From the NCBI GenBank assembly GCA_009843725.1, contig VYCX01000496.1, forward strand, positions 18,766 through 29,276: a stretch of 10,511 nt of DNA, given 5' to 3'. How positions within the stretch are numbered: the first letter of the stretch is position 1; each line of letters begins with the position of its first letter. Positions 1 to 9,075 of the stretch are shown here, piece after piece. Made by a program: the position numbers and the translations under genes. Source of the stretch: Boseongicola sp. SB0675_bin_26 (lineage in GTDB: Bacteria; Pseudomonadota; Alphaproteobacteria; Rhodobacterales; Rhodobacteraceae). Under the pieces are notes generated by a model, which saw only the letters and a list, made by a program, of their open reading frames with translations, was not told the DNA's origin and made no database searches.

Positions 1-55
1 CGAGCCGCCGAGCCGCCGAGCCGCCGAGCCGCCGAGCCGCCGAGCCGCCGAGCCG
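1..55. repeat. 8-bp tandem repeat, about 6.9 copies
   Basis: Six full copies plus seven bases of the unit CGAGCCGC run from the window edge, so the array may continue to the left. The unit is not a multiple of three, so each gained or lost copy changes reading frame, and no frame on either strand contains a stop within the array. It lies about 70 bases before the first gene. It could be the 3' end of an upstream coding region (an RAAEPPSR octapeptide repeat) or a leader. Arrays of short units that are not a multiple of three are known slippage sites in other bacteria; a role here is inference. Confidence 0.9.
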
Positions 56-107
56 ATTGTACTGCGTGTCAAGCCCGGGAATCAACAAGAATTCGTGTCC
101 CATGGGC

Positions 108-120
108 GTCGTTATACGAC
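108..120. promoter_or_regulatory. Perfect inverted repeat before first gene
   Basis: GTCGT-TAT-ACGAC is a perfect 5-bp inverted repeat with a 3-bp centre. It lies two bases before the ATG at 123, in a leader (about 56-125) that is visibly less GC-rich than the genes around it. It could be an operator half-site arrangement or a weak RNA hairpin over the ribosome entry site. No convincing -35/-10 pair or purine-rich Shine-Dalgarno sequence is visible. An inverted repeat this short can occur by chance. Confidence 0.25.
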
Positions 121-122
121 AC

Positions 123-972
123 ATGGTGCCCGCCCTGTAAAGCGGTTTTCCGCGCCGCATTTCTTGCAGCCTTCCTGACGACCCCGTCCTGGGCGTCTTT
201 CGAGACCGCCGGAACCGCCGTTCGGGGCGAGCTGATCCGCTGCCCGGACTGGGAGCGCCTTGCGCCCCCGGTGGTGCTGGCGAGCGCGAAGGCAGGCCAG
301 ACGAATCAGGCTTTCGACGCGCGCGCGGGCAGCCCGCCGGTCGCCGCGTCCAGCCCGAAGCACCCAGCCGCCTGCAGCCACGTCGTCGCCGCCGGCGACA
401 CGCTCGGGGCGATTTCCTCCGCCCGGCTCGGGACGGCGACGCGTTGGAAGGAGATCACCGAATTGAATCCTGGCCTGAAGCCGACGGCGCTGCGTCCCGG
501 GCAGGTACTGAAGCTTCCATGCAGCGTCGGCGACGGGGCAGGGGAGGGCGGTGCGGGAACTCCTCCTGCCCGCGCCGCCTTCCTGGATCTGCTGCGAGGC
601 GCCCTTTCGGGACCGGACGCGGCGGACGGCGAAACGGCGAAGGCCTCCGATGCCGGCGCCGCACCCTCCGGAGACTCCGCTGCCGGCAAGGCGGCCGCTC
701 CGGAAGAGGATCAGCCGCTTCCGCCGCCGCCGGTCTGGACCGCGGCGCAGGGCGAGTTCCTGGCGGACGTGCTGACGCGCTGGGGCACGAAGGCGGGCTG
801 GGACGTCTGGATCGACACCACGGACGCCTGGCGGCTCCAGGTCGCGTTCCGGATGGAAGGCGCGTTCGACGCCGTCGTCGGCGAGCTCATACGCGGCATG
901 GGCCATGACGGCGTCCCGCCCATGGTGCGCCTCTTTCCAAACCAGGTCCTGCGCCTCGGAGGTCCGCTGTGA
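123..972 (+). CDS. LysM + TcpQ-like periplasmic pilus protein, 5' frameshift
   Basis: This is a secreted type IVb pilus assembly protein that probably binds peptidoglycan and helps the secretin assemble. The frame used from base 139 to the stop encodes a Sec signal peptide (hydrophobic core FRAAFLAAFL, cleavage near PSWA/SFE). A LysM domain follows at about residues 85-133 (VVAAGDTLGAI to VLKLPC), bracketed by Cys84 and Cys133, then an Ala/Pro/Gly-rich linker. From about residue 202 to the end is a domain resembling the TcpQ/PilL C-terminus (WTAAQGEF, WGTKAGWDVW, FPNQVLRL). That frame has no ATG, GTG or TTG before the GTG at 271, which would remove the signal peptide and has no Shine-Dalgarno. 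Skipping T138 joins ATG 123 to it as M-V-P-A-L-K-A-V-F-R. So the start is either frameshifted, non-standard or left of the window. The stop overlaps the secretin start by GTGA. Confidence 0.75.
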
Positions 973-2459
973 ACGTCGCCCGGGCAGCCCTCCCGATCCT
1001 GCTGGCCGGTGCGCTGGCCCTGCCGGGCTGCGATTCCGGGATCCGGTTCGACGCGGACTCCGGCCTCGAGGACGGCCGCAGGCTGACCGCCGCCGAGCGG
1101 GCGAGGCTGCGGGCCGTCCATCGCGGCGAGATCCTGCACGAGGACAGGCCGTTGTACGGAACCTTCGTCAAGGCAGCGCGGGGCTCGGTGAACGGAACGC
1201 CGCTGCCGCGACGTCTCGAAGGCGCGCGGGGGATCAGCCTTTCGCTCGCGGGGCAGGCCGATGTCCGCGCAGTTGCCGCCGCGGTCACGGCGGCCAGCGA
1301 CATCCCCGTGAACATCCGGACGCGCTACGTGCTGGGGGACGGCGACGTGGTCGAGGTGCCGATCGGCACCAGGATGGCCGTGAAGGACTGGGAGGGCCCG
1401 CTGTCGGCGTTCCTGGACCGGCTGTCGGCCCGCATGGACGTCGCCTGGTCCTACGACGGCGCGGTGATCACCATCGACCGCATGACGCGGCGGACGTGGC
1501 GCGTGCCCCTGCCCATCGGCGCCGCCGAGATCGAGGAGGGCACGGAAGGCGCCAACGGTTCCGCCGTGAAGGTCACCCGCAAGCTCGACCCCTGGGCCGG
1601 GCTGGCGGCGCGGCTCGCGCCGCTCGCGCCGCCGCCGGCCCGCGTCACGCTCTCCCCCGAGTTTGGCCGCGTCGAGATCTTCGGGCCGCCCTCTGTCCAG
1701 AAGGCGGCGGGCGAGGTGCTGGAGGACATCGTCGCCACCGCCGGCATGCGCATCGGCCTCGACGTCGCCGTGCTCTTTGTCGACTCGGACCGCGCCGACG
1801 AGTTCGGCCTGGGCGTCAACGCGACCGCCACGGCGGGGGCGTTCGGGGCGGGGATCATCGCGGCGGCCACCGGCAACGCGGCCGGCGGGCTGGTGATCTC
1901 GCGCGGCGCGGACCGCGTCAGCTTCCAGGCGCTCGCGCGCGACAGCGCGGTGGTCGACTACCGGCTCGCGTCCTCGGTCGCGCAGTCAGGCGTCGTGACG
2001 CCGATCGCGCTCACCGAGGAGCGCAGCTACATCCGCAGCGTCACCACCGAGCGGGGCGACGACAACAACCCGCCGACGGTCGAGTACGAGATCGCGGAGC
2101 TGGAGACCGGCCTTTCCATCACCGCGCTTGCGCGCCTGGTCGAGGGGCGCCGCATCCAGCTGGCGCTCTCATTCAGCCAGCGCGCGTTCCGCGGCTTCGA
2201 CGCCGACGTGCTGGCCCGGACGGGCACGATCCAGCTTCCCGCCGTGGACAGCCGCACGATCCACAACGAGACGGTGCTCGCCGCCGGCGAGACGCTGGTG
2301 CTGTCGGGCTACGAGCAGGACGTGGCGGTCCGCGCCGACAGCGGCGTCGGGATCCTGCGCAGGCTCGGCCTCGGCGGCAACTCCGAGGCGACCCGCCGCA
2401 AGATCCGCATGGTCGTGCTGGTCCGGCCCACCCTCATTCCCTCCGGAGGGCGCGCATGA
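969..2459 (+). CDS. pilN: PilN-type lipoprotein secretin of type IVb pilus
   Basis: This is the outer-membrane secretin subunit that forms the ring through which the pilus passes; 496 aa, a usual length for PilN/BfpB-type secretins. The GTG start overlaps the previous stop (GTGA) and leads straight into a lipoprotein signal (ALPILLAGALALPGC, lipidated Cys21). Residues about 85-178 look like an N-terminal secretin (STN/N0-like) domain. About 218-260 form a short N1-like module, and about 275-490 the secretin barrel domain. The family's end pattern is visible: LPAVDSRTIHNETVLAAGET, then LVLSGYEQDVAVRADSGVG and a final VVLVRPTLIP. Asp at position +2 after the lipid Cys would signal inner-membrane retention in E. 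coli; this rule is not firmly transferable. The gene is coupled on both sides, ending in an ATGA overlap. Confidence 0.9.
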   Translation: MNVARAALPILLAGALALPGCDSGIRFDADSGLEDGRRLTAAERARLRAVHRGEILHEDRPLYGTFVKAARGSVNGTPLPRRLEGARGISLSLAGQADVRAVAAAVTAASDIPVNIRTRYVLGDGDVVEVPIGTRMAVKDWEGPLSAFLDRLSARMDVAWSYDGAVITIDRMTRRTWRVPLPIGAAEIEEGTEGANGSAVKVTRKLDPWAGLAARLAPLAPPPARVTLSPEFGRVEIFGPPSVQKAAGEVLEDIVATAGMRIGLDVAVLFVDSDRADEFGLGVNATATAGAFGAGIIAAATGNAAGGLVISRGADRVSFQALARDSAVVDYRLASSVAQSGVVTPIALTEERSYIRSVTTERGDDNNPPTVEYEIAELETGLSITALARLVEGRRIQLALSFSQRAFRGFDADVLARTGTIQLPAVDSRTIHNETVLAAGETLVLSGYEQDVAVRADSGVGILRRLGLGGNSEATRRKIRMVVLVRPTLIPSGGRA

Positions 2460-3160
2460 AGGTCTTTCTGACGGACATCATGTACAGCTTCGGCGTTGAC
2501 GGCTCGAGCGGCGGCCTCAAGGAGCTGGTGGTGAACCTGATTCCGGAAAGCGGGCGCGGGATCCCGGCGGACGAGGACGCGGATTCGGTGAGGGTCGCGA
2601 TGCGGGAAGGGTCGGAGCTGTACGCGGTGATGGATCGCTACGTCTCCGTGCTGGACCGGCTCTTCGCCGAAGACTTCCTGGAAGGCCGGCGACAGCCCTG
2701 GTGGAAGGACGAGAGGGACACGGTCCAGGCCGGGCACCGGTACGGCGGCCGCTGGCGGGCGAAGGCGCGGCGGCGGCCCGACGCGGAGGTGGCAGCGAGA
2801 CTCGCGGAGATCTTCGGTGTGCCTGACCCGGACATGCGCGGCGGGCAAGGCGCGCGGGCCGATCTTGGGGCAAGGGTCACGCTGAGCGGGCCGAAGCCGG
2901 CCGCAGAGCCGCCTGAGGGTCGCTGGTTCACGGGTCCGGAGGTCAACGTCTGGCTCGGCCTGGGTCACGCGCTGAACACCTGTGTCTTCCGCTTCACCCA
3001 GGCGCTGGCGCTGCAGTGCGTTGACATCGGGGAGGATGCGGCGGAGGACCTGGCCCTTCTCGACGCGACGCTGGCGGCGGACTGGGACAGTCCGGGCCGG
3101 GACCACTGCATGGCGCTCAGGCAGGCCTGGGCCGAAGCCGGTCCGGAGGCGAGGGCATGA
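2456..3160 (+). CDS. Unknown cytoplasmic protein, paralog A in pilus operon
   Basis: 234 aa with no signal peptide or membrane helix, so probably cytoplasmic. I do not recognise the family. It begins MKVFLTDIMYSFGV and has a GG-L motif near residue 19. Other features are LFAEDFLEG near 69, a basic stretch (RWRAKARRRP) near 97, an EIFGVPDPDMRG motif near 118-129, an RVTLSG strand, and EVNVWLG near 162. The next gene matches it along most of its length, so the two are paralogs. The start is set by the ATGA overlap with the secretin stop, and the end overlaps paralog B the same way. Between a secretin and a PilO2-like gene it most likely serves pilus assembly or its control, but no catalytic motif supports a precise role. 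The frame is open far upstream of 2456, but that part is only a shadow of the secretin gene. Confidence 0.85.
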   Translation: MKVFLTDIMYSFGVDGSSGGLKELVVNLIPESGRGIPADEDADSVRVAMREGSELYAVMDRYVSVLDRLFAEDFLEGRRQPWWKDERDTVQAGHRYGGRWRAKARRRPDAEVAARLAEIFGVPDPDMRGGQGARADLGARVTLSGPKPAAEPPEGRWFTGPEVNVWLGLGHALNTCVFRFTQALALQCVDIGEDAAEDLALLDATLAADWDSPGRDHCMALRQAWAEAGPEARA

Positions 3161-3786
3161 ACGTCGTGCTGGCGCATTTCGCATACGGGCTTCAGGTCAG
3201 GGGCAGGAAGGGCGGCCTCGAACATCTTCAAATGAGGTTCGATCCCGCTGGCGGCGCACGGGAGGACCGGGAAGCCGCGACGGCCGCGCTGCGGCCTGTC
3301 ATGGAGCGCTATACCGACATTTTCGACCAGCTGGTCGCCGAAGACTTCCTGAAGGCCGGCCGGGTCCCGGTCCTGGACGAGTGGCCCGCCGCGGGCGACG
3401 TCGGATACGAGTGGTCCGGGTCATGGAGAAGGAGGTCGCCGTTCCACAGGCGCCCGGACGTCGCCGGGCGGCTCTCGGCGATCTTCGGCGTCCAGGAGCC
3501 GGACATGCGCGGGCAGGAGGAGCGGCACGTCACGCATCGGGCGTCGGTCACGTTCGGGGCGCGCAAGGCGCCGGAGACGCTGCGGCATGTCGAGGTGACA
3601 TGCAGCTTCGGCCACAAGGTGAACGTCTGCCTGCTCCGGTTCGCGCAGTCGCTTCATGACGGGAACATCGCGGAAGCGGCGCTCGACGAGATGCGCAACC
3701 TCGACCGGGCGCTCTCGCTCGCGTGGGAGCGGATGGACGTGGACTGGTACAAGGCCCTGGTTCCCGGAGCGGAGGATCCGGCATGA
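3157..3786 (+). CDS. Unknown cytoplasmic protein, paralog B in pilus operon
   Basis: 209 aa, soluble by composition, family not recognised. It shares with paralog A the opening M-[KN]-V-x-L...Y...V-x-G and the GGL near residue 19. Also shared are VAEDFL near 60, HRRPDVAGRLSAIFGVQEPD near 98-117 followed by MRG, an RASVTFG strand, KVNV near 154 and a helical C-terminus ending in W-rich turns (AWERMDVDWY). The segments between motifs are diverged. Conservation of the same ordered motifs argues both copies are functional, possibly as a heterodimer; that is inference. ATGA overlaps at both ends put it in the same coupled unit as the secretin and the PilO2-like gene. No signal peptide or transmembrane segment is visible. 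Confidence 0.85.
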   Translation: MNVVLAHFAYGLQVRGRKGGLEHLQMRFDPAGGAREDREAATAALRPVMERYTDIFDQLVAEDFLKAGRVPVLDEWPAAGDVGYEWSGSWRRRSPFHRRPDVAGRLSAIFGVQEPDMRGQEERHVTHRASVTFGARKAPETLRHVEVTCSFGHKVNVCLLRFAQSLHDGNIAEAALDEMRNLDRALSLAWERMDVDWYKALVPGAEDPA

Positions 3787-5303
3787 CCGCGCTCGACGCA
3801 TTCCGTGGCGGGTTCCCGCCCGGTCCTCGAAGCGAAGGGGCCGTGCGGGCCGACGACGGTCCGGCCCCGGATCCTGCGGACGCGGCGACGGCAGGCGGCG
3901 CGCAGGCCCTGGACGCGCAGTTGCCGCTGCCGGTCACCGTTCCGCCCGTCCCGGCGAGCCTCGCCGCGGAGGACGGCACGCGCCTCGTCGGCGGACTGGC
4001 CTGGGAGACCGCCTCCGGTCCCGAGGCCCCGGTCATCGGCGCCGACGCGCCGTCCGTCCTGCGCCTGGCGGATCGCCGCGCGCGGCTCGCGGTCGCGGAG
4101 GGCGACCGGTGCGGGTCGCTTCTTCTCGCGATGGCGGCGGGCCTGTCACGCCTCATGCCCGAGGCCTCCGGGCCCTGGGCCTTCATCGCGGAGATTCCCG
4201 AGGGCGACGCGCCTCTCCTCTGGCTGGCGGTCGCCGACATCGCGGCCGACGACGGCAAGGACGGCGGCACCGCCGCCCGCGTGACGCCGCGTCCGGGCCC
4301 CGAAGGGACGTTTGACGACGCCGACGAGGCCCTGGACGCGCTGGAGGGGCAGCTTTCCGTCACCGACGTCGCGGGAATCGCCGTCTGCTGGACGCCCGTC
4401 CGGCCCGGCATGACGCCCGCGGACACGTTTCGCGGCGCCGTCATCCAGCGCCTCGCCGACATCGCGCCGGACTTGCCGCTTCACGACGTCGAGCCGGCCG
4501 CCGGCACGCCCGTCTTCCTTCCTCCAAGGCGGGTGCCGGTCCGGCTGCTGGGCCGCCTCGCCGGCGGCGCGACGGCGCTGCTGGCCGGCGTCCTCTTCGT
4601 CGTGCCGGCGGTGCAGGCGCTCCTCGAGCCGGACGCGCCCCCTGCGGTGGAGACGGTCGCCGTCGCGATCCCGCCGGGCGCCTTCGCCTCGGCCTGCACC
4701 GGGGCCCTGGACGCATGGTGGCCCCGCGTCACCGGCTGGCAGGCCGGGAGCTCGGGCTGCGTGCTGGCCGGCCACCTGCCGCAGGAACGGGATCTGCCGG
4801 AGCCGGAGGCGACGAGACGGCTCGCGCGCTCCATGACGGTCTGGCGGCATCTCGTTCGCGACCCGGCGCGGAACAAGGCGCTGGCCCTCGCCGCCGCCGG
4901 GCAGCTGGTCGCGACCTGGCCGCACGAGGCGCGGCTTGGCGACGACGGCCTCACGCTCTGGAGGACGGCCTCCGTGCCGCTTGGGCGGGCGAGGACGCCC
5001 GTGGACGGCGCGGCCCCGCCGGACCCGGATGCGGTCCGCTCCCGCCTTGCGGCGCTCTGGGCCGACGCTCCGGACGCAGTGACCGGCGGCGACGGCCCCG
5101 ATGCGGGCGCCAGCCTCTTCACGGTCCGGACTCCGGGCGCGGAGCCGGCGACCGCGATCCTGTCCCGGGTCGAGGGGATCCGCGGGATCACGCCGGTCCG
5201 GCTCGTGCAGTCGGCGGCAGGCGGCACCGAGCTCGTCCTCGCGCCGGTCGCCCCGCGACTGGTGCCGGCCGCGCTGCTCGCCGACGGGGAGGGCGCGCAA
5301 TGA
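3783..5303 (+). CDS. pilO2: PilO2-like type IVb pilus inner-membrane protein
   Basis: 506 aa, resembling the PilO2 / pilin accessory family, a bitopic inner-membrane part of the type IVb pilus machine. The N-terminal half is cytoplasmic, with the family-like strand GTRLVGGLAWETA near residue 64 after a Pro/Ala-rich start. One membrane helix lies at about 257-280 (ATALLAGVLFVVPAVQALL). The C-terminal half is periplasmic, with two Cys (ACTGALDAWW, SGCVLAGH) close after the helix and an Ala/Leu-rich region. The start is fixed by ATGA overlap with paralog B, and the end overlaps the small membrane gene at ATGA. Family members are often somewhat shorter; the Ala/Asp/Gly-rich linkers account for the extra length. 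The assignment rests on layout, topology and position after the secretin; sequence matching by eye is modest. Confidence 0.65.
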   Translation: MTALDAFRGGFPPGPRSEGAVRADDGPAPDPADAATAGGAQALDAQLPLPVTVPPVPASLAAEDGTRLVGGLAWETASGPEAPVIGADAPSVLRLADRRARLAVAEGDRCGSLLLAMAAGLSRLMPEASGPWAFIAEIPEGDAPLLWLAVADIAADDGKDGGTAARVTPRPGPEGTFDDADEALDALEGQLSVTDVAGIAVCWTPVRPGMTPADTFRGAVIQRLADIAPDLPLHDVEPAAGTPVFLPPRRVPVRLLGRLAGGATALLAGVLFVVPAVQALLEPDAPPAVETVAVAIPPGAFASACTGALDAWWPRVTGWQAGSSGCVLAGHLPQERDLPEPEATRRLARSMTVWRHLVRDPARNKALALAAAGQLVATWPHEARLGDDGLTLWRTASVPLGRARTPVDGAAPPDPDAVRSRLAALWADAPDAVTGGDGPDAGASLFTVRTPGAEPATAILSRVEGIRGITPVRLVQSAAGGTELVLAPVAPRLVPAALLADGEGAQ

Positions 5304-5524
5304 TCCTGCAGTTCGCGCTTTGGCTCGTCCACTTCGTGTTCTCGTTCGTCTGCTTCAGCGTGCCCAACGGGGTCTTCATGGCGTTCCCCGGCCTGCCGGG
5401 CTGGCTGTTCTGGGCTTGCGCGGCCTGCGTGGCTCTCGTCGTCCTGCTGGTCGAGGCCTGGTTTCTCGCAAGCCGTCTCCATGCCCGAACGGGCGGCTCG
5501 CGGACAGAGGGGTGCGCGCGATGA
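5300..5524 (+). CDS. 74-aa two-helix membrane protein
   Basis: A small hydrophobic protein with two membrane helices at about residues 4-26 (FALWLVHFVFSFVCF) and 34-57 (WLFWACAACVALVVLLVEAW). A short polar, positively charged C-tail (SRLHARTGGSRTEG) follows, which the positive-inside rule would place in the cytoplasm. The family is not recognised. ATGA overlap with the PilO2-like gene supports both its start and its membership of the pilus operon. Its own stop overlaps another ATG at 5521 (see findings). A partner of PilO2 in the inner-membrane platform is a reasonable guess only. Confidence 0.75.
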   Translation: MILQFALWLVHFVFSFVCFSVPNGVFMAFPGLPGWLFWACAACVALVVLLVEAWFLASRLHARTGGSRTEGCAR

Positions 5525-5640: not shown

Positions 5641-5916
5641 TCAGCCTGGGGGGGGAAGGTATCTCAACGCGGGAAAGAGTGCGCCGGCCACGATCGCCAT
5701 TGCGACTCCCAGCCTGAGGGTGATCTTGTCGCTCTGGGCGGCGATGTCCTTCTGAAGGCTCTCGACCGCATGCTTGAGATCCTCCTTGGTCGCCACGCCG
5801 ACAAGGATCGCCTTGGAGTGGTCGACGAGAAGATCAGCCTGCGCCTCGTCGAAGGAACCGCTCTCGGCAAGGCGCTTGAATTCCTTCCTGGTGTCGAATG
5901 CGGCGTCTGCAGGCAT
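5641..5916 (-). CDS. DUF1640-like coiled-coil membrane protein, antisense
   Basis: 91 aa on the strand opposite the pilus operon. It matches the general pattern of the CCDC90/DUF1640 group of small bacterial proteins. An N-terminal helix (FDTRKEFKRLAESG) leads to DEAQADLLVDHSKAI, a TKEDL turn, a coiled coil (KHAVESLQKDIAAQSDKITL) and a C-terminal membrane helix (about 69-86, LGVAMAIVAGALFPAL). The ATG at 5916 has a good Shine-Dalgarno, GGAAGGA, nine bases before it on the minus strand. The last codons run through a C8 tract (LPPPG-stop). The role of the family in bacteria is not established. Being antisense inside a tightly coupled operon is odd and suggests insertion. Downstream on the minus strand is the end of the small membrane gene, with no visible terminator. 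Confidence 0.8.
   Translation of the reverse strand: MPADAAFDTRKEFKRLAESGSFDEAQADLLVDHSKAILVGVATKEDLKHAVESLQKDIAAQSDKITLRLGVAMAIVAGALFPALRYLPPPG
5648..5655. repeat. G8 homopolymer tract
   Basis: Eight consecutive G on the + strand (C8 on the coding minus strand) lie in the last four codons of the antisense DUF1640-like gene. A one-base slip would replace the stop and alter only the C-terminal tail. It would also break the long + strand frame that runs from 5521. Such tracts are also common sites of sequencing error. Confidence 0.85.
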
Positions 5917-5961
5917 GTTCGTCGGTCCTTCCCGTCTTTCCCGTTCAAGGTAGCCTCTTTC
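5917..5961. promoter_or_regulatory. Divergent 45-bp gap between antisense gene and secreted protein gene
   Basis: The gap separates two divergent starts. It contains the minus-strand Shine-Dalgarno (5926-5932) and a weak + strand AAGG near 5946-5949, about a dozen bases before the ATG at 5962. Any promoter for either gene would have to overlap the neighbouring coding sequence. I see no clear -35/-10 pair. Confidence 0.35.
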
Positions 5962-8289
5962 ATGCCGGATTTCCAGTCCGCGCTGCGGCGCGCGCTGCCG
6001 GCCGCGCTGGTCGCCCTCTCCATGCTGACTCCCGCCACGCTTCCGTCGCCCGCCCTCTCGCAGGCGGCGCAGGGCGGCACGCGCGGGATCGACTGCGACA
6101 AGCCGCGCTACAACGCCCAGGGCAAGCTCATCCTCGACTTCTCGGACGGCGCGCGCCAGGCCATATGCGAGGCGCATCGGACCACGGCGCTCACCTACGC
6201 CAACGCGGTCATGGAGACGGCGAACCGGCTCCGGCGCGCGCTGAGGACCCTGCCGCCGCCGGTCTGGGAGGATCTCGTCGGGCATCTCCGCACCGACGAC
6301 GACGTCGCGGACTGGACCTACGCCGACGCCGCCGCGATGCAGCGGCTCCTCAACCTGAGCGCGGCCGCGCCGACCACGCCCGGCGCGGACGGCACGACCC
6401 CCTCCAGCGCCGCGCACGGCGTCGCCACCCACTGGCAGGGCGGCATCCTTGCCCGCAGCGGGATCGGCGCCGACTGGCAAGCGTCCGTCCAGGCGCGGGC
6501 CTGCGGCTTCGACGCCAGCGACGATCCGGTCAACGGCGCCGTCGTCCTGGTCTGGCTGGACCCCGACGCGGTCCGGGACAGCTGGACGCCCCGGATGGTG
6601 CAGCGGACGGCTCTGGCCTGGCAGGAGCGCCAGGGCGACCGCGCCACGGCCCTCGGCAAGGTGCCGCACGTCCTGACCGCCGCCAACACGATGACGGACG
6701 CAAGGGGCAGCGCCCTCCAGGTGTCCGGCGACGCCGCCATCCAGGCCTGCCTTGCCACGGTGCCCGTCGGCGCGCTGGTCGAGCGCGTCGGCCTCTCGCA
6801 GCCCCGCAGGGGCGGGGAGCGCGCGCTCCGCTGCGAGGACCCGGCCGAGATCGGAAGCCGGACGTTCGTCTGGGAGCGCCGGAACGGCGTGTACATGGTG
6901 CCGCCCTTCGCGGTGCTCGCGGACGGCAGCGACCACCCGGACCGCGGCGAGCCGCTGCTCGGCCAGCGCCCGGACCTGCCGCTCGTCGCGACGGAGCCGG
7001 ACCCGACGAGCACGGTCCCGCAGCCCGGCGAGTTCCTGCGCCTGGGATCGTCATGCCGCCCTCCGCTCTGGCGCGATGCCGTGCGGCCGCAGGACTGCCC
7101 CGCGATCGTCGGCTCGGTGGCGGACCACGACCACGCCACGCCGCACGGCTTCACCGATGCCGAAAGCCATGGGCTGCGGCGGCATTCCCACGTCACGGGA
7201 ACGCATGTCAGGCGGTTCCGCTTCCGGGAAACGCAGGACGATCCCGTTGACCCCTTCCTCGTGAACTGGGAGCCGGTCATGCCCGACCCGCTTGACCCCG
7301 ACAACGACCTGGGGGTCATCGCGCCCGTCGGCGACCCGCATCCCGAATGGGCGAGCGTCACCGTCTTCTGCGACAGCATCCCGCCAAGCGACGCCCCGCC
7401 CGTGCCGCCTCGCGTGAACGACTGGACGCCGCCAGACTGCCCGGCGCAATGGCCCGGACGGTTCGTCCACGGCCACCGGCTCGGCTTCACCCAGCACTTC
7501 GACTATCCGCCCGAATGGAACACGAGCGGCGTCAAGCGCGACGAGGCGATCCGCACGATCGACGACTACTGCTTCAACCCGGTGCAGGTAACCGGCTCCC
7601 AGAGCCGGACCGGCGGGGCCTGCGAGGCGGTGACCGGCACGAGCTCGAGCACGACCGCAACCAGCAGTTACACCGTGACCGACATCCACGATGATCCGAA
7701 CAACCCGGGCGCCACCACGAGCACGACCACGACGCACGACCAGACGGAAACCGGCACGAACGCCGGACCCTGCGAATGCCCGGCCGGGTGGTCAGGCTCG
7801 ATCACTCAGGAGCGCGACTTCCGGTGGCACAACCGGACCTGGGCCGTGCCTCACCAGAGGCTGAACGGAACGCGAAACGACGCGCGGGCGCAATGGGGCG
7901 TCGGCGCGGTCGCCGGATTCTACGACGCGACGGCGACGACCGACGCCGTGCTGGGCGCGATCGGACGGCTTCCCGTCCTGCCCACGGACCCGCCGGCCCC
8001 GCCCGGACTGGCGGCGTTCATCCGTCTGATCTCGATGACCGCCGACTGGCACGAGGAAAGCAACACCTGCCGTCCGCCGATCACCTACAGCGGCGGGTCG
8101 GACGAGGACCAACTCTATTACGAAGACGCCGACGGCAACACCTACCACACGAACAGCTATCGAAACGGCCCGTCGTCCTGGACCCGGAACTGGGACAACG
8201 GGATGACGGAAAAACGCGGATCGTGTCAGGGCAGTTGCGACTTCAGCCCCGGATCCCCGGACACGGACCCGACCACCAAAGGCGCATGA
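5962..8289 (+). CDS. Large Cys-rich secreted protein in pilus operon, unknown
   Basis: 775 aa. The ATG at 5962 begins a clear Sec signal peptide (SALRRALPAALVALSML, cleavage around residues 32-36), so the mature protein is exported. It has 16 Cys, an even number fitting disulphide bonding. About 45-470 is a large Asp/Pro-rich region with no family I recognise. A His cluster at about 389-415 (HDHATPHGF, RRHSHVTGTH) could bind metal. A Ser/Thr-rich spacer lies at about 556-597. A small Cys-rich tail starts at about 598 with CECPAGWSGSITQER and carries Tyr/Asn-rich turns (LYYEDADGNTYHTNSYRNG). A secreted, disulphide-rich protein with a T/S linker in a pilus operon could be a tip adhesin or a protein passing through the secretin; this is inference. 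It lacks a prepilin leader, so it is not a pilin. The open frame continues left to 5521, but the signal peptide argues for 5962. Confidence 0.8.
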   Translation: MPDFQSALRRALPAALVALSMLTPATLPSPALSQAAQGGTRGIDCDKPRYNAQGKLILDFSDGARQAICEAHRTTALTYANAVMETANRLRRALRTLPPPVWEDLVGHLRTDDDVADWTYADAAAMQRLLNLSAAAPTTPGADGTTPSSAAHGVATHWQGGILARSGIGADWQASVQARACGFDASDDPVNGAVVLVWLDPDAVRDSWTPRMVQRTALAWQERQGDRATALGKVPHVLTAANTMTDARGSALQVSGDAAIQACLATVPVGALVERVGLSQPRRGGERALRCEDPAEIGSRTFVWERRNGVYMVPPFAVLADGSDHPDRGEPLLGQRPDLPLVATEPDPTSTVPQPGEFLRLGSSCRPPLWRDAVRPQDCPAIVGSVADHDHATPHGFTDAESHGLRRHSHVTGTHVRRFRFRETQDDPVDPFLVNWEPVMPDPLDPDNDLGVIAPVGDPHPEWASVTVFCDSIPPSDAPPVPPRVNDWTPPDCPAQWPGRFVHGHRLGFTQHFDYPPEWNTSGVKRDEAIRTIDDYCFNPVQVTGSQSRTGGACEAVTGTSSSTTATSSYTVTDIHDDPNNPGATTSTTTTHDQTETGTNAGPCECPAGWSGSITQERDFRWHNRTWAVPHQRLNGTRNDARAQWGVGAVAGFYDATATTDAVLGAIGRLPVLPTDPPAPPGLAAFIRLISMTADWHEESNTCRPPITYSGGSDEDQLYYEDADGNTYHTNSYRNGPSSWTRNWDNGMTEKRGSCQGSCDFSPGSPDTDPTTKGA

Positions 8290-8301
8290 AAGGATACGCC
8301 C

Positions 8302-9075
8302 ATGCTCAAGACACTGACCGCCGCCGCCATCGCGCTGCACGTCGCTGCAAGCGCGGCGACTGCCGCCGACCGGCACATCTCGCTAAAGGCGCTCTATGCC
8401 GCCTTCGCAGCCGGTGACCTGGAAACCGTCATGGCCTTCAAGGCGAAAGACCTTGGCACCGACTTCATTTTCTTCGGCCCCTATGGCATGTCGCTCGTGC
8501 ACAGCGCGGCCCAGCACAACCAACCAGCCATTGCCGCCGCGCTGATCGATGACGGCCTGCCCGTCGACATCCGCACAAAGCCGCCGGAAGGCCAACGCGG
8601 AACGCCCATCATGGTCTCGGCCGGTTTTTGCAGCCTGCAAGCTGGCCTCTTTTTTCTGGACGCCGGTGCCGAAGTCAACGCAGTGCACGGCACCGGTAGC
8701 ACTGCGTTGATCTTTGCTGCGCGAAACGACTGCCCGGAAATGGTGTCTTTGTTGCTGGACCACGACGCGGACCCGATGATTGCGGCACGCGGCCGGAAAC
8801 TCCCCAAGGACGAGCGTGGCTTTCGCGCCGTCGACTTTGCCCGGAAATACAGTCCCGAGCTCCTGGAAACCCGCGCCGGCAAGCGCCTGGTCGCGCTGAC
8901 CGAGGCGGGCGAGGGCTGCGACGGCGGAACGGTCGAGCGGGGCGACAGCCACCTGGGGCTCTTCGCCGAGCGCATTCTCGGGGACGCCGAGCGCTGGCGG
9001 GAGATCGCGAAGCTCAACGGGATCGGGCCGGACAGCCCGGCGCGATACGGCGACTGCCTGAAGCTGCCGGCCTGA
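8302..9075 (+). CDS. Secreted ankyrin-repeat protein with C-terminal LysM
   Basis: 257 aa. The start ATG at 8302 has AAAGGA seven bases upstream, overlapping the previous stop. A Sec signal peptide ends near residue 22 (AIALHVAASAATAA/DRH). About four ankyrin-type repeats follow at roughly 26-175; the clearest are GMSLVHSAAQHNQPAIAAAL, GTPIMVSAGFCSLQAGLFFL and GSTALIFAARNDCPEMVSLL. The C-terminus (about 206-257) is LysM-like: VERGDSHLGLFAERILGD, then RWREIAKLNGIG and a final YGDCLKLPA. This is close to the LysM of the first gene and also carries a bracketing Cys pair (206, 252). It probably sits on periplasmic peptidoglycan and presents ankyrin repeats to a partner. The ankyrin part is near 61 percent GC against about 74 percent in the tail, suggesting two origins. 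Its role in pilus assembly is not evident from sequence. Confidence 0.85.
   Translation: MLKTLTAAAIALHVAASAATAADRHISLKALYAAFAAGDLETVMAFKAKDLGTDFIFFGPYGMSLVHSAAQHNQPAIAAALIDDGLPVDIRTKPPEGQRGTPIMVSAGFCSLQAGLFFLDAGAEVNAVHGTGSTALIFAARNDCPEMVSLLLDHDADPMIAARGRKLPKDERGFRAVDFARKYSPELLETRAGKRLVALTEAGEGCDGGTVERGDSHLGLFAERILGDAERWREIAKLNGIGPDSPARYGDCLKLPA

Follow-up and report, generated by a model that had tools for sequence, protein, structure and literature searches.

Plasmid type IVb pilus operons of the R64/IncI type are the closest described systems to the locus considered here. Their gene order is given as pilIJKLMNOPQRSTUV in one published account (PMC6232867), which also reports three pilN and two pilO copies on plasmid pYR4; variation at the pilN/pilO site is thus not unheard of. 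We analyzed a 10,511-nucleotide stretch of Boseongicola sp. SB0675_bin_26 (contig VYCX01000496.1), referred to below as the window. It resembles the R64/IncI-type operon in having a TcpQ-domain gene, a gene for a PilN-like secretin and a bitopic PilO2-like gene (P3); its most complete relative also encodes a T2SSE ATPase, a PilS-type pilin and an A24 peptidase. It differs in carrying two coupled genes, A and B, in front of the P3 gene and one small membrane gene (S74) after it.

On balance, we favor the view that A and B are an accessory, mobile pair that was inserted into the pilus operon, rather than a core part of the pilus. They belong to a protein family for which we coin the name GGL, from a motif near the protein start. 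The best reading of this family is that of cytosolic alpha/beta proteins, accessory and mobile, that are unnamed in the databases searched (Pfam, NCBIfam, PHROGs and PADLOC).

Genes A and B are intact paralogs

Both genes are complete, coupled open reading frames (ORFs) with a GC content of 0.86 at third codon positions in each. A, B and the gene at position 3783 each have a start codon that overlaps the preceding stop codon in the sequence ATGA, and this overlap was present at all four of the window junctions examined. The paralogy of the two genes is established: BLASTP aligned the proteins with 78 of 223 residues identical (35%, E=6e-31), and a search of the whole genome with A recovered B (E=8.5e-24). 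The identity of the A and B alignment is 58% for nucleotides and 39% for amino acids. No hydrophobic segment was found in either protein, the 19-residue Kyte-Doolittle maximum being 0.98 in A and 0.86 in B. AlphaFold2 models were of similar quality for A (predicted local distance difference test score, 79.3; predicted template modeling score, 0.79) and B (79.1 and 0.80), and the two models suggest one fold order common to both. Searches of Pfam, NCBIfam, PHROGs, PADLOC and the PDB sequences gave neither protein a match that passed the cut-off, and sub-threshold matches came from Pfam and PHROGs only. An earlier note on this DNA had described an adjacent, coupled pair of genes, both intact, encoding soluble, paralogous proteins of no known family, and this description agrees with our results throughout.

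The same note had listed six shared motifs, which we tested as regular expressions. Four are present in both proteins as written (V-x-L....Y, GGL, AEDFL and [AE]IFGVx[DE]PDMRG). The proposed R-x-[ST]VT occurs in B only, A having ARVT, and the form common to both is A[RS]VT. VNV does not hold as an aligned motif, since VNV of A (position 163) pairs with VEV of B, and VNV of B (position 155) pairs with LNT of A. A better common motif is GH.[LV]N.C..RF.Q.

The pair had further been placed between the secretin and PilO2. The first neighbor is a secretin according to Pfam (PF00263); the name of the second is backed by no profile. P3 had no match in Pfam or NCBIfam, and its comparison by hhalign with three plasmid proteins from the PilO2 position gave E=0.13, with a shared N-terminal GL.W motif only. 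We therefore call P3 PilO2-like, a label that reflects its position, one predicted transmembrane segment and this short motif. That the IncI layout has nothing comparable at this site was borne out by the three plasmid records read of the nine with a secretin match: in each of them pilO2 comes right after the secretin gene, except that one has an unnamed gene of similar size there.

The pair is absent from the related operons found

The secretin served as query against 16 chosen genomes and then, with a cut-off of E 1e-40, against 198 genomes of the family. These searches yielded four related operons, with secretin identities of 88% (locus L058 in genome G005), 84% (L049 in G446), 58-60% (L064 in G036) and 46-49% (L059, a second copy in G005). 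Seven weak secretin matches (22-28% identity, E 2e-14 to 2e-4) were set aside; one of these, L060 (G445:C253), had no match to the other proteins of the window.

A and B are missing from all four related operons, in which pilN runs straight into the P3-like gene. The two genes are joined by an ATGA overlap in L058 (position 9934), L049 (2561) and L064 (6928 of the reverse complement), and in L059 the second gene starts just past the stop (8102). By blastn, window positions 2-2468 correspond to L058 7449-9946, and 3832-5286 to L058 9983-11437, so both flanks of the pair are collinear with this relative at 80-84% nucleotide identity. The absence of the pair from the related operons found is thus established, and from it we infer gain rather than loss: since the distant operons do not have the pair either, a gain in the lineage of the window is a simpler account than clean loss on four occasions. 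A second blastn gap against L058, from 5286 to 5517, marks S74 as a further extra gene of the window. This gene is missing from all three related operons that reach the junction (L058, L059 and L064), L049 ending before it, and no S74 homolog was found in the other loci compared, where the best chance match had E=0.08.

The window lies at the right-hand end (18766-29276) of a contig of 29,276 bases, and the draft genome to which it belongs comprises 4.14 Mb in 574 contigs. In so fragmented a draft, an assembly or binning artefact could give the same picture, and none of the seven other searched genomes of the genus has a homolog of the family. We regard this as very improbable: both flanks are collinear with L058, exact ATGA overlaps at all junctions would hardly be expected of a chimera, and both ORFs retain the pattern of the GGL family described below.

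The L058 locus extends into L061 and is the most complete relative; the gene after its ATPase gene had no match to the expected T2SSF family. The L064 and L059/L062 loci have matches to the ATPase of L061 and to the next gene, and none to its pilin or peptidase at E<=0.01. As this most complete relative has the ATPase, PilS-type pilin and peptidase, we class the operon of the window, by its gene content, as that of a type IVb pilus; this relative manages without A, B and S74. The window, which stops at the contig end, has no assembly ATPase, pilin or prepilin peptidase, and the draft genome, 92% complete, gave no T2SSE match that passed the Pfam cut-off. The rest of the operon is therefore probably missing from the assembly.

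The GGL family

Twelve full-length homologs were found outside the window, in seven genomes and two other genera. Family members have about 200-230 amino acids, and Y10, GGL19-21, D67, L116, G121, N174 and R179 are invariant in the 11 that were aligned. Membership of A and B is established by Y10, GGL19-21, N174 and R179 and by alignment with the outside homologs over the full length. In hmmsearch, the 11-member profile scored A at 2e-73 and B at 1e-77, values to be expected from the way it was built, as it includes both. Among the pil loci searched, it had no match below E 0.2. A distant homolog outside this alignment (L075) has GGV in place of GGL. In a tree, A and B cluster together (support 89/88), with the chromosomal homolog L034 next to them; the branches are long, and the tool warned of false joins.

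With a profile of A and B, one true homolog was detected among 385 genomes of the class, in G426 (E=7e-11). From 95 genomes around G426 came ten further matches, spread over five more genomes of g277, the genus of G426, which is of a different family from that of the window. With a seven-row profile, positive genomes numbered three of 385 in the class sweep (that of the window, G426 and a fragment in G348), one of 61 among relatives of the window (its own genome), seven of 14 in family f80 (all g277, G348 again with a fragment) and two of 398 in the phylum sweep (that of the window and G616). These sets overlap, those of the phylum and class are samples, and at most seven or eight candidates per genome were scored, so that absence from them is not firm.

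Other searches were negative within their scope. A alone found no homolog outside its own genome in 101 genomes (100 besides its own), a plasmid collection had no match for A, B or P3, and viral contigs had none for the A and B alignment, P3, the secretin or a four-row family alignment. A first scan of the genome contig collection also gave no match, and a second one yielded three loci, on contigs equal in length to contigs already known from the other searches. P3 was found in its own genome alone among 289 genomes of the class, apart from a match in G183 with two internal stops that was attributed to chance. Matches in G000:C209 (43% over about 50 residues, with an internal stop) and in G167 and G181 (E 0.002-0.005) were likewise rejected as chance. 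The fragment in G348 (L076 6327-6524) is a family gene cut to 65 codons by an internal deletion that joins both ends, and its upstream neighbor is the same as that of L034.

Seven of 12 homologs are linked to a tyrosine recombinase

Seven of the 12 homologs share one layout (L015, L028, L029, L030, L031, L032 and the first homolog of L033), which establishes the recombinase linkage of this part of the family. A gene for a tyrosine recombinase (338-355 amino acids where complete) is oriented divergently from the homolog, after which comes a gene for a single-pass membrane protein of 87-91 amino acids with a basic tail. Both recombinases scanned had a Phage_integrase match in Pfam, and the remaining five are alike in DNA; the cassette copies are of one lineage. 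L030 4914-7213 matches L031 9448-11747 at 94% (2.3 kilobases, kb), and L030 5018-7214 matches L032 2045-4241 at 91% (2.2 kb). Cassettes this similar in the differing surroundings of L030, L031 and L032 identify the unit of about 2.2-2.3 kb, at the level of sequence comparison, as a mobile one. In its single Phage_integrase-family recombinase, its one or two cargo genes and its flanks that differ from site to site, it is like other small tyrosine-recombinase mobile units, from which it differs in its cargo, a GGL-family gene and a single-pass membrane protein. One genome, G448, has three copies of the layout (L028, L029 and L030).

In L033, a second homolog and a small membrane gene follow the first, so that an intact tandem pair is present, and in L030 and L031 the second tandem gene is reduced to about its first 44 and 24 bases, respectively. 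A membrane protein gene follows the homolog in nine of 12 cases, which are the seven cassettes with their single-pass proteins, one more case in L033, and L036 with a Band_7 (SPFH) protein. On its right side, the L031 cassette borders directly on part of a Band_7 (SPFH) gene that resembles the one of L036; this part comprises the final 49 codons and lies in two frames (L031 11746-11891). Elsewhere, by reading of the sequence, the gene preceding the homolog in L034 and L035 looks like an NAD synthetase gene, and the homolog of L075 lies alone on its strand near genes that resemble those for cytochrome c maturation.

Nine proteins of the pilus loci were compared with the 12 context loci, which together cover 130.5 kb (118.5 kb with full-length homologs and the 12 kb remnant locus L076), some contexts being only 4.6-7 kb long. 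Genes like those of the operon stood beside none of the 12 homologs, the search being directed at the window's own type of pilus system and not at unlike ones; a single 24-residue match to the last ORF of the window had E=0.009. In a positive control with three pil loci, seven of the nine queries were found; the pilin and peptidase queries found nothing, so that their negatives mean little. The earlier note had asked whether homologs usually lie away from pilus genes and never occur as pairs. The former is what we observed; the latter fails, given the pair in L033.

These results weaken the interpretation of A and B as a pilus component. The note had proposed a new pilus-associated component. 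As parts of the pilus machine, they could be lineage-specific and form a cytosolic hetero-oligomer that docks on P3 and alters assembly, retraction or mating specificity. The exact site between the secretin and P3 genes with translational coupling on both sides, the intactness of both copies and their solubility, which would suit a cytosolic regulator, are in keeping with this idea. We nevertheless consider it unlikely, as all four related operons do without the pair, none of the 12 homologs lies by genes similar to those of the operon, and in G446 a pilus operon and a GGL homolog occur in one genome on different contigs.

Selection and the time of entry

Nei-Gojobori ratios of nonsynonymous to synonymous substitution rates (dN/dS), which are rough in such GC-rich genes, were 0.30-0.50 for cassette homologs of the L030 type (six pairs), 0.58-0.64 for those of the L015 type (three pairs) and 0.59-0.85 between the two types (twelve pairs), and the recombinase of the L030 type gave 0.28-0.38 (three pairs). 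To judge by these values, the cassette homologs are under constraint yet quick-evolving. For A and B themselves, no orthologs came to light.

The higher ratios of the L015 type and between types, set against those of the L030 type and the recombinase, would also suit moron-like passenger genes whose task has nothing to do with the pilus, for example defense, exclusion of competing elements or a membrane-stress response, for which the operon provides expression only. The homologs are mobile cargo, as such genes would be, and the homolog and Band_7 (SPFH) gene of L036 (147-14500) lie near genes for an M78 metallopeptidase, an Hma-like helicase and a defense-type ATPase; a neighboring gene there reads like a DNA methylase gene. 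Against this stand the roughness of the ratios, the fact that a single family member is near defense genes, and PADLOC, which returned no family for A, B and three homologs at E<=0.01. We regard the passenger role as a serious possibility, short of an even chance; it is compatible with insertion and differs from our proposal in mechanism.

For the insertion itself, we infer that A and B entered as a pair. Between the window and an insert-free relative, pilN is 88.6% identical in nucleotides, against 58% for A and B. The divergence of A from B thus exceeds that of the flanking pilN, which suggests that the two had probably diverged before entry and arrived together. Fast evolution of the family, as in its cassette members, would lessen the force of the argument for divergence before entry.

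The contig and the pilus operon of the window

The features of the window are listed in Table 1. The secretin had TIGR02520 (PilN) as its best NCBIfam match (E=3.3e-24), with 85.3 bits, below the cut-off of 287.65, and the adjoining TcpQ-domain gene had 34.5 bits for PF10671 against a cut-off of 27. P3 follows the secretin directly in all four related operons. Downstream of the large protein, the C-terminus of an ankyrin protein (8302-9075) is like part of the LysM/TcpQ gene of the related operons (E 1e-5 in L049 and 4e-5 in L058). A second copy of this pair of large-protein and ankyrin-like genes (window 5872-9075) was recognized by eye downstream of the pil operon of G005 (L061 16444-19513). 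No Rfam family was found in the window.

Table 1 Features of the window and the basis of their assignment
Feature	Position	Strand	Basis
LysM and TcpQ protein (PilL-like)	271..972	+	Pfam PF01476 and PF10671 above cut-off
PilN-like secretin	969..2459	+	Pfam PF00263, 34.3 bits (cut-off 27.5)
Gene A, 234 amino acids, first member of pair	2456..3160	+	Paralogy, family alignment, AlphaFold2 model
Gene B, 209 amino acids, second member of pair	3157..3786	+	Paralogy, AlphaFold2 model
Putative inserted stretch with A and B	2456..3782	+	ATGA overlaps at bounds; missing from all four related operons found
P3, PilO2-like bitopic inner-membrane protein, 506 amino acids	3783..5303	+	Position; hydrophobic stretch 255-283
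S74, small membrane protein, 74 amino acids, two hydrophobic stretches	5300..5524	+	Hydropathy; putative second insertion after P3
Large operon protein, start uncertain	5872..8289	+	No known family; relatives in L058 and L064

The remainder of the contig (C463 1-19000, L004) carries RepC-like (RP-C) and ParA-like genes. Their presence points to a plasmid, and the contig is probably one; we take its replication type to be the one known as repABC. Genes for a DNA methylase with an HNH domain, an NYN/LOTUS protein and proteins with ankyrin and HNH domains were also observed there.

A possible mechanism

We propose the following course of events. Elsewhere, GGL genes are the cargo of a small tyrosine-recombinase unit or stand alone, mostly with a membrane protein gene next in line. 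A pre-formed, diverged pair of A and B would have entered between pilN and the P3 gene of a plasmid type IVb operon, and S74 would have entered after the P3 gene, each insert being joined at an ATGA overlap that preserved the translational coupling of the operon. In the cytosol, A and B may attach to a short inner-membrane partner at its membrane-proximal part and hold or gate it; candidate partners are the single-pass proteins with basic tails in the cassettes, and S74 or P3 in the window. In the pilus operon, they would be expressed with the inner-membrane platform and perhaps modulate it, while remaining outside the platform core. This role as cytosolic partner of short inner-membrane proteins is put forward tentatively, and we think it rather more likely to be wrong than right.

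The models of A and B resemble, weakly, the fold of the Eag chaperones and DcrB (DUF1795; SciW, EagT6 and DcrB), with no significant score and template modeling scores of about 0.2-0.3, and Pfam did not list the DcrB/DUF1795 family for A or B at E<=1. As a speculation to which we give little credence, the GGL proteins could form a new class of cytosolic chaperones, akin to Eag/DcrB, that serve short inner-membrane proteins and are spread by a tyrosine-recombinase unit. Here, a heterodimer together with S74 would have been built into a type IVb operon, where it would control the P3 platform and hence when, or to whom, the pilus is deployed.

Implications

If the insertion of an accessory, mobile pair is the true account, a pilus operon acquired two genes together, joined in at stop/start overlaps with its translational coupling unbroken, and an extra gene in the operon of a machine is by itself no evidence of a machine part. 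It would also bring to light an unnamed protein family that is mobile and linked to a recombinase. As operons with and without the insertion have secretins that are 88% alike, the role of A and B is directly testable.

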